Below, piece after piece: positions 43,279-50,622 of a stretch of 64,000 nucleotides of DNA. A program made the position numbers and the translations under genes. How positions within the stretch are numbered: the stretch's first letter is position 1; each line of letters opens with the position of its first letter. Below the pieces are notes generated by a model. The model did not search any database. It was not told where the DNA came from and saw nothing but the letters and a program-made list of their open reading frames with translations. This DNA is from Thiospirochaeta perfilievii (GTDB lineage: Bacteria > Spirochaetota > Spirochaetia > DSM-2461): NCBI RefSeq assembly GCF_008329945.1, contig NZ_CP035807.1:2046001-2110000 (forward strand), written 5' to 3'.

Positions 43279-46074
43279 ATGAAAAATTTATTGAAAGTGT
43301 TTTGTTTATTGGTTTTCACTGCTATTTTTGTAAGCTGTGAAGATCCTCTAGGTAGTCAAGCTACAAATGACTATTCAACAGAGATCGTTGATGAGTTTAT
43401 TTCTGAAATAACCGGAAATCGGGCTTTGACAGGTCTTAATATTGCTGATATGAAAGCGGCAATAATTGCAGAGTTAGAGAGTAAGGGCTTAGATACGTCT
43501 CAGAATTTAGGTGAGTTAATTCCAGTTATTGCTTCATCAGCCCAAGTTTCCTTAAAAACTGTAGGAACTGAGGAAGATAGAATTATCTATATTAAAAATA
43601 TCTCAAAATCATCAATTACTGTTATTGGGAAAAAAGCTTCATCCTCAATTTCGGTTACAGATAAAACTAAGATGGTCTCAAATGTTTCTATAGCTATGGT
43701 TGAAAAGATATCAGATTCGGGAATTAGTGCAGAAAAGATTGAAGAAACTACAAAGGCAACCATATCCAGTGTTGTAAGCTCTTTAGGTAGTGTTGAACTA
43801 GATAATGTTGGTGCATTAACAGCTATCTCTTTAATCACAAAAGGGTCTTCTGTTGCTCTATCAAAGAACTCAGGAATTACTGATGAAATACTTCAAAATA
43901 CTTTATCAAATATTCCATCAACTGCTACAACTGCTTCAAAATCCATTGAAAATATTGCTCTAAACCCAAAGGATGTTTTAAAAGGATCTTTTAGTTCTGT
44001 TACGGAGTCTGTTAAAGAAATTAAAGATAGTGGAAAAACAATAGATGTAGCTGTTACCCTACAAAAGGTCTTAGAGGTTACAACAACATCTTATGCTTCA
44101 GATGACTCCATCTCGTTTGACAACATTAAAGATGATTTACTAAAAGATACAATAGCAGCAGCTAAAGAAGATGGTGCGTCTGAAGTTTTAGAAGAGCTTA
44201 AAACAGGTTTGACAGAGTCTACAGTAGTTGAAGTTTCTAAAGAGGATATCACTGGAGCTGAAGAGGCTATAGAAGATGACGAGGTAACTGAAAATCCTGA
44301 TGCAACAACAGCCGAGCTAGAAGTAGCAGGATTTAACCAACTTAAAGCAGGCTCTTTAGATATGGCTTTAGTTAGTTTTGAGAAAGCCAAAAATAGTACA
44401 GGTGGTCTATCTGATAAGGGTAAAATGTGGTGGTCAATGTTAACATTAGCTAGTATGAGTATAGATTCAAATGTTACAGATGTAGTTGAAAATCTAGGTA
44501 TTAATGCATATCCAACCACAATGGAAGGTGTAATAGCTGGTGATATGATAGTTAGTGGCGAATATGAGATTACCAATGACAATTATCATGGCTATGACTA
44601 TTATTCGATGTTAAGAAAGGTCGATAATGAAGAATTATTTTATTCTATGTTTCAAGTAACTGATAGTGATAAGCGTTCTGTATCTGAGGCTCAGTTTGTC
44701 GCTATGTTGTATAATCTAAAAAATAGCTATCCTAATGGTTTAAACAGTATTGTTGACTCACTCATAGCCGCTACATCAAAATTTGATGATGTTGTAGCTA
44801 TGATGGATACAATAGAGGATGATGCAGCTTTTACTTATACTTATGATATGTTCAATGATGAAGCTTTTGAGGAAGGAAACAGTGAGTGGCCAAGTTATAC
44901 TAATGATTCAAATGCGCTAGTACCCTTCGATATAACAGCAGGTAAGGCTGAAGTTTATGCTTTAATGTCTACAATTGAACTTATTAAATCTGTAGCCCTT
45001 ATGGGACAATCTATATCATTAAGTGCCGATCTTGACGGATATTGGGATGTTTTTAACCCACTAGATGGTAACTTATGGGTTATAGCAGATGGTAAAATTA
45101 CAGGAATTAGTGAGGATTTCGATTTAACAACTTTAAGGAATCCTTTAAGTGACGGTTTCTTACAATCTAGAGAAAATGCTACAACTATTTTAGCAGAGGC
45201 TAAAACTCACTTTGTTAACTTTTTTACCTATGTTAAGGGTGCAAGTGACTTAGTGGCAGGTAGGGATGCTAATTCTCCATTCTTCCTATCTCCTGCTACG
45301 GCACAATTTACAGAATCATGGACTATGGTTTCTACTATCCAAAAGTTTACATCATTAGTTACTGGAAAAATAATAGACTCCTTAGAAAATAAAACCCCTA
45401 TCCTGCTTCCTGGGTCAATAATGGGTATAACTTCACCTGATGACTTAAATAACTTAGTTTGGCCTACAGAAGATGCTGATGGAGTAATGTCATTAAATCT
45501 TAATGCTCTATTTGCTAAACCAATATTTGCACTAGACTCTCTATTAGATATGACAGGTACAGGTGAATTTGTAATTTATGAAGCTGGTGATACTACGTAT
45601 CAAGTTGCAACAGCGTTTGATCAAGATAAACAGTACTATGTTAAATTTAATGATTTAACATTTGGTGGTTTAGCCTCTGGTGTTCAAGATATGATCTTGG
45701 ATTTTGTACCAATGGAGTTAGTATTAGAGGATGATGACTCGATATTTGTACCTCTTCCTCCTATGACCTTAGAAGCTGTAGGACACTCTTTAACAGCAGC
45801 TGGTAGCACTTTTACATTAGGTGAGACTTCAATAAAATCAACAGGTTCATTTTTCTACTACCTTGCAGATATGGGTCTTGGTATTATAGGTAGTGAGATT
45901 GCAGCTTCTGTTGCTTGGGAAGAAGGATATGAACAAGGATATACTAAAGGAAGTAGTGATAACGCAAGTGACGCGAATTTCAATAATGATACTCTAAGTG
46001 ATGATGACGACTACATTGAAGGTTATGAAGTAGGTTATTACGATGGTTATTGGGGGGGCCCTAAAATTATCTGA
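43279..46074 (+). CDS. Large lipoprotein with Gly-Tyr-rich C-terminus
   Basis: No known family recognised. The signal peptide MKNLLKVFCLLVFTAIFVSC ends in a lipobox with Cys20. Residues 30-330 are rich in Ser, Thr, Ile and Val with helix-like repeats (KIEETTKATISSVVSSLGS). Around 350-400 a single TPR-like unit appears (AGFNQLKAGSLDMALVSFEKA). The middle is acidic. The end carries GYEQGYTKGSSDN and, after an acidic spacer, YIEGYEVGYYDGYWGGP, a repeated G-Y-x-x-G-Y pattern. Ribosome site AAAGGAAG precedes ATG. Likely surface or periplasmic and envelope-anchored; function unknown. Confidence 0.7.
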   Translation: MKNLLKVFCLLVFTAIFVSCEDPLGSQATNDYSTEIVDEFISEITGNRALTGLNIADMKAAIIAELESKGLDTSQNLGELIPVIASSAQVSLKTVGTEEDRIIYIKNISKSSITVIGKKASSSISVTDKTKMVSNVSIAMVEKISDSGISAEKIEETTKATISSVVSSLGSVELDNVGALTAISLITKGSSVALSKNSGITDEILQNTLSNIPSTATTASKSIENIALNPKDVLKGSFSSVTESVKEIKDSGKTIDVAVTLQKVLEVTTTSYASDDSISFDNIKDDLLKDTIAAAKEDGASEVLEELKTGLTESTVVEVSKEDITGAEEAIEDDEVTENPDATTAELEVAGFNQLKAGSLDMALVSFEKAKNSTGGLSDKGKMWWSMLTLASMSIDSNVTDVVENLGINAYPTTMEGVIAGDMIVSGEYEITNDNYHGYDYYSMLRKVDNEELFYSMFQVTDSDKRSVSEAQFVAMLYNLKNSYPNGLNSIVDSLIAATSKFDDVVAMMDTIEDDAAFTYTYDMFNDEAFEEGNSEWPSYTNDSNALVPFDITAGKAEVYALMSTIELIKSVALMGQSISLSADLDGYWDVFNPLDGNLWVIADGKITGISEDFDLTTLRNPLSDGFLQSRENATTILAEAKTHFVNFFTYVKGASDLVAGRDANSPFFLSPATAQFTESWTMVSTIQKFTSLVTGKIIDSLENKTPILLPGSIMGITSPDDLNNLVWPTEDADGVMSLNLNALFAKPIFALDSLLDMTGTGEFVIYEAGDTTYQVATAFDQDKQYYVKFNDLTFGGLASGVQDMILDFVPMELVLEDDDSIFVPLPPMTLEAVGHSLTAAGSTFTLGETSIKSTGSFFYYLADMGLGIIGSEIAASVAWEEGYEQGYTKGSSDNASDANFNNDTLSDDDDYIEGYEVGYYDGYWGGPKII

Positions 46075-46087
46075 AATAGTATCTAGT

Positions 46088-46834
46088 TTATATAAGATGC
46101 TCTTTTAAGAGGGTCTTATAAATATAACCTGATACGGCTTTGGGGGCACTTTTACCAGGTAGCCCCCTGGCTTTTATTATGTTTAAGCCAAGGGCTTTAG
46201 ATCTTTTTTTATCAATAGTATAATCACCTGGTGATACATCAACTATTAATACATCTCTATTTAGTTTCTCTAGGCTACTATTTATTGGGTTCGCATCCTT
46301 ACTTGTATTTATTATAATATTTGAAGAAGTTATTTCCTTCTCTTTAACTATTTTTCCACCAAGGGATTCAATAAGTATAGTTAGTCTATTTTTTACTCTT
46401 CCTTCTCCATTTATCAGGACGTTAGAATCAAAAAGTGTAAAATCACTCCTATCTATTACTATTTTTATAATCTCTTCACATGTAGGGATAACTGTCTTAT
46501 TTGTAAAATCCCTATTCTTGGTAATATCGTAGAATCTCTTATCATCTATATTAAAAGGGCCTCCAATTATTCTTGCATCCTTATCAGCTTTTAATAGTAG
46601 TTGGTCTATATGGATGTTCTCCCCAGAGTAGGGGGAGTAGAGTTGAAACCCATCTATTGTAAATGGAATAGGAGCAATAATAGTTTTAAAACCTTTCAAA
46701 ACAATAGGTTTATTGTTATTTTTGTTATTAAGAAGATGGTTAAAACCCTCTAGTTTCACATCGAAATTATTTTCTAACAATCTTTTATATAGGTAATAAT
46801 TAGTTAAATCACCTGCCAATACTAAAATACTCAT
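46088..46834 (-). CDS. Dipicolinate synthase subunit A-like protein
   Basis: Resembles SpoVFA/DpaA, the NAD(P)-dependent subunit making dipicolinate in endospore formers. Aligned features recalled from B. subtilis DpaA: the N-terminal LVLAGDLTNYYLYKRLL, IIAPIPFTIDG, VIPTCEEIIKIVI, IIINTS and the near-diagnostic ARGLPGKSAPKAVSGYI. The Rossmann glycine loop is altered (INGEGRVKNRL where the family has GLGRTG), so cofactor binding may be lost or changed. Length 248 is about 50 short of DpaA. No dpaB lies beside it. It has its own promoter 5 bases before the ATG and follows the floA operon. Function here is unknown. Confidence 0.65.
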   Translation of the reverse strand: MSILVLAGDLTNYYLYKRLLENNFDVKLEGFNHLLNNKNNNKPIVLKGFKTIIAPIPFTIDGFQLYSPYSGENIHIDQLLLKADKDARIIGGPFNIDDKRFYDITKNRDFTNKTVIPTCEEIIKIVIDRSDFTLFDSNVLINGEGRVKNRLTILIESLGGKIVKEKEITSSNIIINTSKDANPINSSLEKLNRDVLIVDVSPGDYTIDKKRSKALGLNIIKARGLPGKSAPKAVSGYIYKTLLKEHLI

Positions 46835-46872: not shown

Positions 46873-47178
46873 TTATCTCATTGTTACTGGTTTATCCAAA
46901 ATTTCAGACCAGATTACAGCTCTTTTTAATAGTGGTAACTTCTCTATCTTATCTATAGAAGTGGTTATAACTTCTTCCTCATCTCTGCTCTTAAGGGTTA
47001 AACCACCGCTTAAATCACTGTTTTTATTAAAAACACTATGCTCTGTCTCTTCTTCGAATACAATTGGGGACTCTTCTTTTATATGGTAAATCTTTTTCTT
47101 TTTTTCTGACTCCTTTTTTTTAACAAACCACATAAAAACAATCCCTATAAAAAAGAGGATAGATGTTAAAAACTCCAC
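46873..47178 (-). CDS. Small membrane protein at the end of the floA operon
   Basis: A 101-residue protein without a recognised family. Residues 1-16 form one membrane segment (LTSILFFIGIVFMWFV) followed at once by KKKESEKKKK, so the rest is probably cytosolic. The tail is acidic (EESPIVFEEETEH) and ends in LPLLKRAVIWSEILDKPVTMR. The gene starts 4 bases after floA and is the last of four on the minus strand. Its position suggests a partner of the flotillin/NfeD membrane-domain system. Confidence 0.7.
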   Translation of the reverse strand: MEFLTSILFFIGIVFMWFVKKKESEKKKKIYHIKEESPIVFEEETEHSVFNKNSDLSGGLTLKSRDEEEVITTSIDKIEKLPLLKRAVIWSEILDKPVTMR

Positions 47179-47182
47179 CTGA

Positions 47183-48166
47183 CTACTCCTTCATATCCTT
47201 GCTTATACTATCCCTCATAGATGTATCGGACTGAATATTTTTAAGTCTATAATAATCCATAATTCCTATATTTCCTGATCTAAATGATTCAGCTATTGCT
47301 AAAGGTATTTCAGCCTCTGCTAAAACAACCTTTGCACGATTCTCTACTACTAAGGCACTCATCTCCTGCTCCCTAGCTCTAGCTGCAGCCCTTCTCTGCT
47401 CTGCAACAGCTTGGAACCTTCTCTTATCCGCTTCTGCCTGATCCGCCTGTAACTTAGCTCCAATATTAGATCCTACATCCACATCTGCTATATCAATGGA
47501 GAGAATTTCAAAGGCAGTTCCCGCATCTAAACCCTTTCCTAATACTGTTCTAGAGATATTATCTGGGTTTTCTAAAACATCTTTATATGTAGGGGCAGAA
47601 CCAATTGTTGTAACAATACCTTCTCCAACCCTTGCAATAATAGTCTCTTCTGTGGCACCACCTACAAGTCGCTCTATATTTGCTCTTACAGTTACTCTAG
47701 CCTTTGCTTTTAGTTGGATCCCATCCTTAGCAACTGCGTCTATTGTTGTTCTGCCATGGGCAGGATTGGGGCAGTCGATAACCTTAGGATATACACTAGT
47801 TTTTACAGCATCTAAAACGTTTCTTCCTGCTAAATCTATAGCCGCAGCCTGTTTAAAAACCAGGGGAATGTTAGCCTTATTTGCCGCTATTAAAGCCTTG
47901 CTTACTTTAATAATATCCCCACCAGCTAAGTAGTGGGTTTCTAGGTCATCAGAGTCTAAAACTAACCCGGCCTTAGTAAGCATAATGTGACTATCTACTA
48001 TTGTTGTTGCTTTAACTCTACGTATCCACATACCAATCAATCGACTCATTTTTATATGGGCCCCTGAGAGTAGAGCTCTAAACCAAAGGTTAAAAAACTT
48101 GAGAAAAAAAGCGACAATTATTAGGGCTAGTATCCCTAAAATAATATACGAAATAAATAAAATCAT
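47183..48166 (-). CDS. floA: Flotillin-like protein FloA
   Basis: Membrane-domain scaffold of the UPF0365/FloA family. An N-terminal hydrophobic hairpin (residues 2-30) anchors the protein. The SPFH region follows ([20 protein letters not shown]-like segment, [20 protein letters not shown]), then a charged helix [20 protein letters not shown]. Length 327 is typical. Ribosome site AGAGGAG precedes the ATG, which overlaps the short nfeD gene by 4 bases. The nfeD-floA pairing is conserved in many bacteria. Confidence 0.94.
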
Positions 48167-48654
48167 AAGATCTCCTCTAGGGCTACAACAACTGTCTTAC
48201 CCTTAATACTAATTACTTTTATATAACTATTTTTATTTATATATTCACCCTGGGTTGTAACATTATATTTCTTGTTATCTAATTGTGCCTCGCCAATTGG
48301 CCTAAGATTAGTTAATGCCCTACCAGTTAATCCAAGTAAATTTGAATCCTCTTCTACTGTTGGTATATAACCTTTAGATTTTGAAAAGTTATTATGGAGA
48401 ATAAGTTTTTTACCAATAGATGATTTAGGGAATAGTTTAAAGTAAAGATAAAAAAGTATAGGCCCAATAACTAGAGAGGAGAATAGAAAAATTGTCCCAG
48501 TAATAATACCATAAGTTAAAAATGACCTAACAATACCGGTAACAACTAAACCAAAACCGATAACACCAATTAAACCTGCCGAGGGTACAAAAAACTCAAT
48601 AATTATTATTAAAAATCCAAGTATAACAAATATAATATTATATAGAAGTATCAT
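48163..48654 (-). CDS. NfeD-family membrane protein, short form
   Basis: Three or four membrane segments (residues 3-80, including [19 protein letters not shown]) and a C-terminal OB-fold domain ([35 protein letters not shown]), the arrangement of short NfeD proteins that partner flotillins. Ribosome site GGAG lies 7 bases before ATG. It overlaps the long NfeD gene by 17 bases and floA by 4. Confidence 0.9.
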
Positions 48655-50062
48655 TAGATATCTCCTCTACGACGACTCTGTTTCCAGTATGGGATATAAC
48701 TCTTATAGCTCTGCCTTTCTCTATTAAAGAACCATCACTTTTGGCTTCTAGAATAGTATCATCTATCTTAATTTTACCTATTGGTCTTAATTGAGTTACT
48801 GTAATACCCTCTCTGTTCGTAATGTTTAATAAAGGTGTAGGTTCTCCCTTATCAATTTGGGGAGAGAGTATTAATTTCCTAAAGAGAGAGAGTTTTGGAA
48901 ACAGAACCATAAGTAGTGATATTATAATAATCGATATTATAAAGCTTATAAATATTGTAAATGAATTACTGTTAAACTCTTCCCACTGCCATTCCCATTT
49001 AGGAATTATAAACTCCTGTCTACTTAACAGTATTGATACAGCAATTAATAATAATCCAGAGACCCCTGTAAGGCCAAATCCAGGAATAATAAAAACTTCA
49101 ATTATTAAAAGTGTTATGCCAATTATAAATAGGAGTAACTCAATAGAACTTAGTGTTCCAAGAAGTTGCCCCCCTGCAAAAATTATGGAGAATGATATTA
49201 GCCCAATGGCTCCTAATAAACCAAACCCTGGACTTGTAATTTCCATATATAGAGTAATTAAGCCTAAAACTAATAAAAGAGCCAACACAGAGGAACTTGT
49301 AATCAGATCAATTACCAAGTCAGGAATAGTTTTTATTATTTTAGTAACGTTTTTTTTATTTTTTCCTAATCTATTAAGAAGATCATCTAAGTCTTTAACT
49401 GTTCCCTTTGATATATTATATAACTCCATCTGTTTAGCTGTTAAAGTTAAAAGTTTATCTTTTTTAAGAAACTCTTTACCTTCTTTAAGTTCATCTTCTG
49501 AAAGATCCTCTTTAAGTTTTAAGCTTGGGATCCCGTCTATATCTACTTCGTATAGCTCTATATCCTTATCCACCATTGCAAGGGCAACTTCTGCTGGGTA
49601 ACCATTTTTTTCTGCAATTGAGGCCATCTGAACCCTTAGGGCACTTATAGTTTTCTCTCCTGCATCTTCACTACCCTCTGAAGTTAAATAGATAGGAGAT
49701 GCAGCACCTATACTTGTCCCTTCTGACATATAAATTTGACTACAAGAGAAGGTTATTAAAGCTCCTGCAGACCAACTAACACCAAGACTCTCTGGATTTG
49801 AGGGGATGTAGGCTATTGTTCTGTTTCCTTTAATTGAACCTATTAGTGTTGTTATTTTAAGGGCTGAATCGACTCTGCCTCCAAAAGTATCTATTTCGAA
49901 TATTATGGTGGACTGATCATCTTTAACTTTCTCTAGACTCTGTCGTATAAAAACAGCTAATGATGGCTCAATATCCCCTTGAATTGGTATTATATAAACT
50001 TCTTCTTGGGGATATAGATAGGATGATAATAATAGAAATATAAAAGATAAAATTCTTTTCAT
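48638..50062 (-). CDS. NfeD-family membrane serine protease, long form
   Basis: Signal peptide (ILSFIFLLLSSYLYPQ), then a ClpP-like protease domain with the nucleophile in GVSWSAGALITFSCSQIYM and GTSIGAASPIY. Four membrane segments follow (about 245-390) and a C-terminal OB domain (TNREGITVTQLRPIGKIKI, RVVEEIS-like end). Length 474 matches long NfeD (1b type, STOPP proteases). It is the first gene of the four-gene floA unit; ribosome site GAGG precedes the ATG. Probably degrades membrane or stomatin-like substrates. Confidence 0.92.
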   Translation of the reverse strand: MKRILSFIFLLLSSYLYPQEEVYIIPIQGDIEPSLAVFIRQSLEKVKDDQSTIIFEIDTFGGRVDSALKITTLIGSIKGNRTIAYIPSNPESLGVSWSAGALITFSCSQIYMSEGTSIGAASPIYLTSEGSEDAGEKTISALRVQMASIAEKNGYPAEVALAMVDKDIELYEVDIDGIPSLKLKEDLSEDELKEGKEFLKKDKLLTLTAKQMELYNISKGTVKDLDDLLNRLGKNKKNVTKIIKTIPDLVIDLITSSSVLALLLVLGLITLYMEITSPGFGLLGAIGLISFSIIFAGGQLLGTLSSIELLLFIIGITLLIIEVFIIPGFGLTGVSGLLLIAVSILLSRQEFIIPKWEWQWEEFNSNSFTIFISFIISIIIISLLMVLFPKLSLFRKLILSPQIDKGEPTPLLNITNREGITVTQLRPIGKIKIDDTILEAKSDGSLIEKGRAIRVISHTGNRVVVEEISNDTSI

Positions 50063-50118: not shown

Positions 50119-50622
50119 TTAAATGTAATCTGGGTCTATTTGTAAAACAATATCCTTCATAGGAGGTAGTTGGGTGTAGGTTACATTAGCGTTGTCTAAC
50201 ATCAGTTTTGATGCTTTAAAAATATCACTATCCCTATATTTATCTGATAGGTAGAAGATCTCCTTAATACCACTCTGGATAATAGCTTTTGCACACTCAT
50301 TACAAGGGAAGAGTCCCACATATATTTTTGACCCTTTTAGATCACTTTTTATGGAGTTCAAAATAGCATTTAACTCTGCATGGACAATAAATGGATATTT
50401 AGTATTTAAAAAATCACCCTCTTTATCCCACGGAAACGAATCATCGGAACACCCTCTTGGAAGGCCATTATATCCCATACCGATAATCTTGTTATCCTTA
50501 ACAATGCATGCACCAACTTGTGTATTAGGGTCCTTACTTCTCTTGCTAGATAGTATTGCAATCCCCATAAAATATTCATCCCAAGAAATATAGTTTTCTC
50601 TTTTTTTTGTTAAATTTTCCAT
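50119..50622 (-). CDS. Deoxycytidylate (dCMP) deaminase
   Basis: Zinc deaminase converting dCMP to dUMP for thymidylate synthesis. Zinc ligands and catalytic base: His81 and Glu83 (FIVHAELNAI), Cys107 and Cys110 (FPCNECAKAII). The N-terminal SKDPNTQVGACIV and YNGLPRGCSDD are typical of the ComEB/dCMP deaminase group. Length 167. Ribosome site GGAGG precedes ATG. It is divergent from the following kinase gene across 51 bases. Confidence 0.93.
   Translation of the reverse strand: MENLTKKRENYISWDEYFMGIAILSSKRSKDPNTQVGACIVKDNKIIGMGYNGLPRGCSDDSFPWDKEGDFLNTKYPFIVHAELNAILNSIKSDLKGSKIYVGLFPCNECAKAIIQSGIKEIFYLSDKYRDSDIFKASKLMLDNANVTYTQLPPMKDIVLQIDPDYI

Follow-up and report, generated by a model that had tools for sequence, protein, structure and literature searches.

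According to one report (PMC9024752), DPA formation in B. subtilis needs both subunits of dipicolinate synthase and uses HTPA as the substrate. A second source (PMC3533761) states that not all spore formers have dpaAB and that these genes do not clearly predict sporulation. In the four firmicute plasmid records that we inspected, dpaB is adjacent to dpaA. The structures of the A subunit, DpaA, from B. subtilis (2rir) and B. halodurans (3d4o) have a two-domain fold, and this fold, a full-length alignment and the IPTxE, GxGR and GLPGxxAP motifs are common to them and the protein described here.

That protein is a 248-aa DpaA-like product encoded on the minus strand (46088..46834, ATG start) of a 64,000-nucleotide stretch of the Thiospirochaeta perfilievii genome, hereafter the window. 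Of 26 genomes of the family that were searched, the three that belong to the genus each have an orthologue, and none was found in the 23 genomes from five other genera. The other two genus genomes, represented by L007 and L008, are the MAGs SZUA-382 and ZodW_Metabat.93 (Spirochaetales), which are 71 and 81% complete. A literature search, judged by title, returned no paper about a DpaA-like protein in spirochaetes.

Profile and fold comparisons relate the window protein to DpaA

The Pfam DpaA_N model matched the window protein with 46.2 bits (E 5.9e-12), above its cut-off of 29.2. The NCBIfam models DpsA (NF006162) and spore_dpaA (TIGR02853) also matched, with E values of 1.5e-28 and 2e-18, and both matches lie under the equivalog cut-offs. 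On these two DpaA models the window protein scored 66.6 against a required 319.65 bits and 100 against 261 bits, whereas B. velezensis DpaA clears both thresholds. A profile built from the three orthologues spans residues 8–288 of B. subtilis DpaA (2rir) in two stretches (E 6.7e-20). The ORF contains the peptide quoted in the original prediction, ARGLPGKSAPKAVSGYI, whose aligned counterpart in Bacillus DpaA is the GLPGxxAPKTAG segment; the GLPGKSAPK motif conserved with DpaA occupies residues 224–232 (46139..46165, minus strand). The window gene is thus genuinely, if distantly, homologous over its full length to the A subunit of dipicolinate synthase (DpaA/SpoVFA). The end-to-end homology that had been claimed is borne out by Pfam, NCBIfam and the three-orthologue profile together, which also completes the SpoVFA/DpaA profile check that had been proposed, and the estimate of about 50 missing residues was right (248 aa compared to ~296 aa). 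An Rfam search of the window gave no match.

AlphaFold models of the window protein and of the L007 orthologue, both calculated from three-row alignments and of middling confidence (pLDDT 72.9 and 74.0), adopt the overall DpaA fold. The best matches of the window protein model were 3d4o and 2rir (Z 14.5/14.1 over 235 and 240 residues), with an rmsd of about 14 that presumably stems from the orientation of the two domains in the model; the first non-DpaA entry had a Z of 11.8. The L007 model gave the same two best matches (Z 16.1/15.9, rmsd 5.7/6.2, 237 and 234 residues), followed by a first non-DpaA entry at Z 12.5.

These data bear on whether a member of another Rossmann family, such as a 2-hydroxyacid dehydrogenase or adenosylhomocysteinase, was mistaken for a DpaA relative. 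Structures of this kind do appear further down the lists of fold matches, and D-2-hydroxyacid dehydrogenases have a two-domain Rossmann architecture in common with the window protein; however, they score lower Z values than DpaA and have no sequence-profile match to it. At E values up to 1, the Pfam and NCBIfam searches returned no dehydrogenase family except DpaA, and DpaA leads every fold comparison among the families that were listed. No other Rossmann family in these searches matched better than DpaA, an outcome that would have overturned the assignment, and we rejected this explanation, already disfavoured, as scarcely credible.

A common deletion shortens the Rossmann domain

Between the first glycine of the loop and the Asn-Thr (or Gly-Ser) motif that follows β4, the spacing is 33, 33 and 35 residues in the three orthologues and 57 in all eight comparators (two Bacilli, two Clostridia, one phage-collection contig and three Alphaproteobacteria). 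This difference reflects a deletion of 22–24 residues that is common to all three orthologues, lies between β2 and the IINT motif of β4 (residues 161–177; 46304..46354, minus strand) and takes out α2-β3-α3 of the Rossmann domain. In keeping with the alignment, both AlphaFold models contain β1, α1, a short β2 and at most a short helix before β4, with α2-β3-α3 absent; the structure prediction that had been proposed as a check for NADP-site loss thus agrees. In Rossmann folds, α2-β3-α3 helps hold the adenosine half of the cofactor.

The glycine loop, which begins with GEG at residues 143–145 (46400..46408, minus strand), reads GEGRVK in the window protein. Its third glycine has become Lys148, and across the three orthologues this position is Lys, Ala or Ser. 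Loops of the type GxGxxA/S are found in working dehydrogenases. The damage to the loop that had been noted is real as regards the third glycine, and the shared deletion matters more, as Ala or Ser takes this place in the other two orthologues.

Among 40 columns that are invariant in five DpaA-type proteins, 13 were kept by all three orthologues, and in 17 the residue is absent from all three; L008 is cut by a contig end and its C-terminal columns were scored as gaps, which lowers the count of kept columns. The GDxR arginine (Thr in each orthologue), the third loop glycine, the arginine after β2 and the proline of NTxP are lost from all three, and a further arginine that is invariant among the compared DpaAs is replaced by Asn in each. 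A complete NADP-type Rossmann domain, with GxGxxG, an arginine after β2 and α2-β3-α3, is absent from the window protein. Because both the GDxR arginine and another DpaA-invariant arginine are gone, the substrate has probably changed too, as judged from the alignment. The kept residues comprise IPTxE (VPASE in L008), the first two loop glycines with the arginine that follows (GxGR) and N176-T177; GLPGxxxP is retained in both complete sequences, the C-terminal comparison resting on these two.

The retained residues raise the main rival explanation, that the protein has kept a redox activity and works alone, as a dehydrogenase or reductase, on another cyclic imine or imino/keto acid with NAD(P) held in the shortened site. 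The cleft motifs (IPTxE, GLPGxxxP), the start of the GxGR loop and N176-T177 would fit such an enzyme. The C-terminal part of the window model also superposes on dehydrogenase NAD domains, for example 7va1_B (Z 11.3, rmsd 2.3, 110 residues), and alphaproteobacterial DpsA genes with no listed dpaB adjoin a gene of the octopine/nopaline dehydrogenase family in what seem to be catabolic clusters. However, the adenosine half of the site is gone in all three orthologues, the third loop glycine is Lys, Ala or Ser, the arginine after β2 is missing and the Rossmann part changes faster than the rest of the protein, and we regard continued redox activity as doubtful.

The N-terminal domain is the better conserved half

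The N-terminal, DpaA_N-like domain (residues 1–115; 46490..46834, minus strand), which is presumed to form the substrate side, is the better conserved half within the genus. In the three genus pairs its identity was 67.5, 62.3 and 59.6%, compared to 43.2, 43.2 and 42.0% for the hinge plus Rossmann part (Fisher p values of 6e-4, 0.01 and 0.016, with sites treated as independent and the pairs not independent of one another). By contrast, among full-length relatives the N-domain excess was not significant in any of 17 control pairs; their odds ratios were below 1 in 12 pairs and above 1 in 5, the largest being 2.07 (p 0.17).

All three orthologues are open frames, from three species, with 50–58% identity and strongly kept N-domain blocks. 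Among them, dN is 0.37–0.41 and dS is saturated or not computable; dN is well below dS where this could be computed, which points weakly but consistently to purifying selection. The gene changes faster than its neighbours EngB and TetR, and this rate, with the lost motifs, is what a decaying and functionless remnant of a transferred dpaA gene would display. Such a remnant is nonetheless improbable in light of the open frames, the identity and the dN/dS relation just given, and because the orthologues have the same deletion, strongly kept N-domain blocks and a retained place beside the same gene run.

The genome lacks DpaB and signs of sporulation

DpaB was not found in the T. perfilievii genome with TIGR02852, and the one match to the PF02441 flavoprotein family there is CoaC, encoded inside a panB-panC-coaC-coaB-coaX run (gene names other than coaC were read from ORFs). 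Within that run, near 1619715-1620173 of G000:C1 (L057), coaC and coaB look like two distinct genes. Both dapA and dapB are present, adjacent to each other elsewhere in the genome, and HTPA is therefore presumably made in the host. Spo0A_C is absent from all three genus genomes. The original prediction had held that the gene has no dpaB neighbour and that the genome has no sign of sporulation; both statements stand, and the genome search that it suggested for dpaB and dapA-type genes is covered by these results. Because the window protein falls far under both curated cut-offs, its genome has no DpaB and Spo0A is absent, it is not a DpaA.

It might instead be a dipicolinate synthase that works without DpaB, in a cell that does not sporulate but uses DPA to chelate metals or for protection. 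The DpaA_N match over the cut-off is compatible with this idea, as is dapA, by which the precursor should exist. Yet the scores far below both equivalog cut-offs, the loss of DpaA-invariant arginines, the reduced NADP site and the missing DpaB, set against the two-subunit requirement in B. subtilis given in PMC9024752, make such an enzyme very improbable.

Distribution and gene neighbourhood

A search of 392 phylum genomes with PF16924, a draw in which only three genomes of the window's family are listed, gave a single match, in the T. perfilievii genome itself. The three-orthologue profile matched in 118 of these genomes; the window gene, which is in the profile by construction, scored 326.8 bits and every other match at most 32.1 bits. 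Nearly all of the weak matches were limited to the Rossmann part, the exceptions being one in G150, which scored 20.7 bits in the N-domain, and one in G136, which covered positions 199–289 and had six stops inside. We read the weak matches as generic dehydrogenase or chance matches. A first scan of the genome contigs gave no match. Phages, plasmids and viral contigs, searched with either the window protein or the profile of three rows, gave none, and neither did a viral-contig scan with four firmicute DpaAs. The L007 protein, searched against plasmids at E values up to 5, matched five records, four firmicute dpaA/dpsA genes and one from Curtobacterium (E 3). In a tree in which 3 of 8 inner branches are open, the three orthologues lie on a long branch (1.91) and Bacillus DpaA is the nearest outside sequence by path.

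The DpaA-like genes of L007 and L008 directly follow a dCMP deaminase gene, with gaps of 15 and 3 bases. In the window, the ComEB-like dCMP deaminase family gene (50119..50622) is followed on the same, minus strand by genes for an NfeD1b protein (48638..50062), a short NfeD protein (48163..48654), the flotillin-like FloA (47183..48166) and a small protein of 101 aa that has a single apparent membrane segment at the N-terminus (46873..47178), and then by the DpaA-like gene; the successive gaps are 56, -17, -4, 4 and 38 bases. FloA was found in one of the three genus genomes, the other two being 71 and 81% complete. The four intervening genes may represent either an insertion in the window lineage or a loss in the other two lineages. 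On the other side of the DpaA-like gene, positions 43279-46074 encode a 931-aa protein whose N-terminus resembles that of a lipoprotein and for which Pfam gave nothing above the cut-off; it shares 34% identity with a 951-aa protein encoded close to this locus in L007.

The dCMP deaminases share about 76% identity within the genus. Other genomes of the family contain a single deaminase match in 22 of 23 cases, with 32–40% identity to the genus protein; within the plasmid collection, the genus protein is closest to sequences from Fusobacterium (72%) and Firmicutes (61%). These affinities suggest, but do not prove, that a foreign dCMP deaminase was acquired by the genus, perhaps together with the DpaA-like gene.

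Discussion

With somewhat better than even confidence, we read the window protein as a repurposed, probably NADP-independent derivative of DpaA that was kept for small-ligand binding. The protein would no longer work as a dipicolinate synthase and would have no DpaB partner. Its N-terminal domain and inter-domain cleft would retain the ability to bind a small ligand, and the C-terminal Rossmann domain would be reduced to a lid (β1-α1-β2-β4 and onwards) that lacks the adenosine/2′-phosphate half of the NADP site. Most likely it would then serve a binding role, as a sensor or as a partner of the gene group that contains the dCMP deaminase, or carry out non-redox chemistry, rather than hydride transfer. 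A binding or non-redox role is favoured because of the shortened loop-to-β4 spacing, the lost residues, the missing DpaB, the conservation of the N-domain, retention throughout the genus and adjacency to the deaminase gene; from these we infer that NADP binding was lost, that the ligand changed and that a functional link to the deaminase may exist. The original prediction of a repurposed or non-catalytic protein accords with the lost NADP-site features and the missing dpaB, and its proposed connection to dipicolinate or metal chelation found no support.

Some observations call for caution. The first two loop glycines with their arginine, the IP(T/A)xE-type motif, GLPGxxxP and N176-T177 stay, so that the protein may have a nucleotide site that is smaller or of another kind. 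Moreover, four genes separate the deaminase from the DpaA-like gene in the window, and a functional tie between the two proteins is conjecture. A narrower version, in which a genus-specific, NADP-less DpaA descendant now senses a small molecule or catalyses a non-redox reaction and is linked through the dCMP deaminase to deoxynucleotide metabolism, is put forward only tentatively; it would mean that a spore-specific dehydrogenase was stripped of its cofactor site and retained for its ligand-binding cleft. If the broader reading as a repurposed derivative holds, the protein would be a clear case of a dehydrogenase that lost half its cofactor domain, with its substrate-side domain under stronger constraint.

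Compared to DpaA/SpoVFA, the window protein is about 50 residues shorter, without α2-β3-α3, the GDxR arginine, the third loop glycine and the arginine after β2, and it comes from a host that has no DpaB and is not a spore former. Another comparison is provided by plasmids. A stretch of B. subtilis DpaA matched 17 plasmid records, 14 of which are from Alphaproteobacteria (Aminobacter 10, Shinella 3, Phyllobacterium 1) and annotated as DpsA. At the three loci that we inspected (L036, L037 and L039, from Shinella, Aminobacter and Phyllobacterium) no dpaB is listed beside DpsA in the PLSDB gene table, which is incomplete. The neighbours there are an octopine/nopaline dehydrogenase family gene, amidohydrolases, 2-hydroxymuconate tautomerase and isochorismatase, in apparent catabolic clusters. 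These DpsA proteins are probably mis-named and are candidate opine or N-heterocycle enzymes. Like the window case, they belong to the DpaA family, have no listed dpaB and occur in bacteria not known to sporulate. Unlike the window protein, they have a full-length Rossmann domain (spacing 57) and keep 26 of the 40 invariant columns, among them the GDxR arginine, the third loop glycine, the arginine after β2 and the NTxP proline. The window gene has neither their intact Rossmann domain nor their octopine/nopaline dehydrogenase family neighbour, and the gene beside its orthologues in L007 and L008 encodes a dCMP deaminase. The label dipicolinate synthase outside spore formers, in this spirochaete as on the alphaproteobacterial plasmids, should be taken neither as proof of DPA synthesis nor as a marker of sporulation. 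Alphaproteobacterial annotation already includes DpaA-family proteins for which no dpaB is listed, so that a DpaA relative outside sporulation is not new in itself; what is new is only the truncated form of the protein, which has no match among them.
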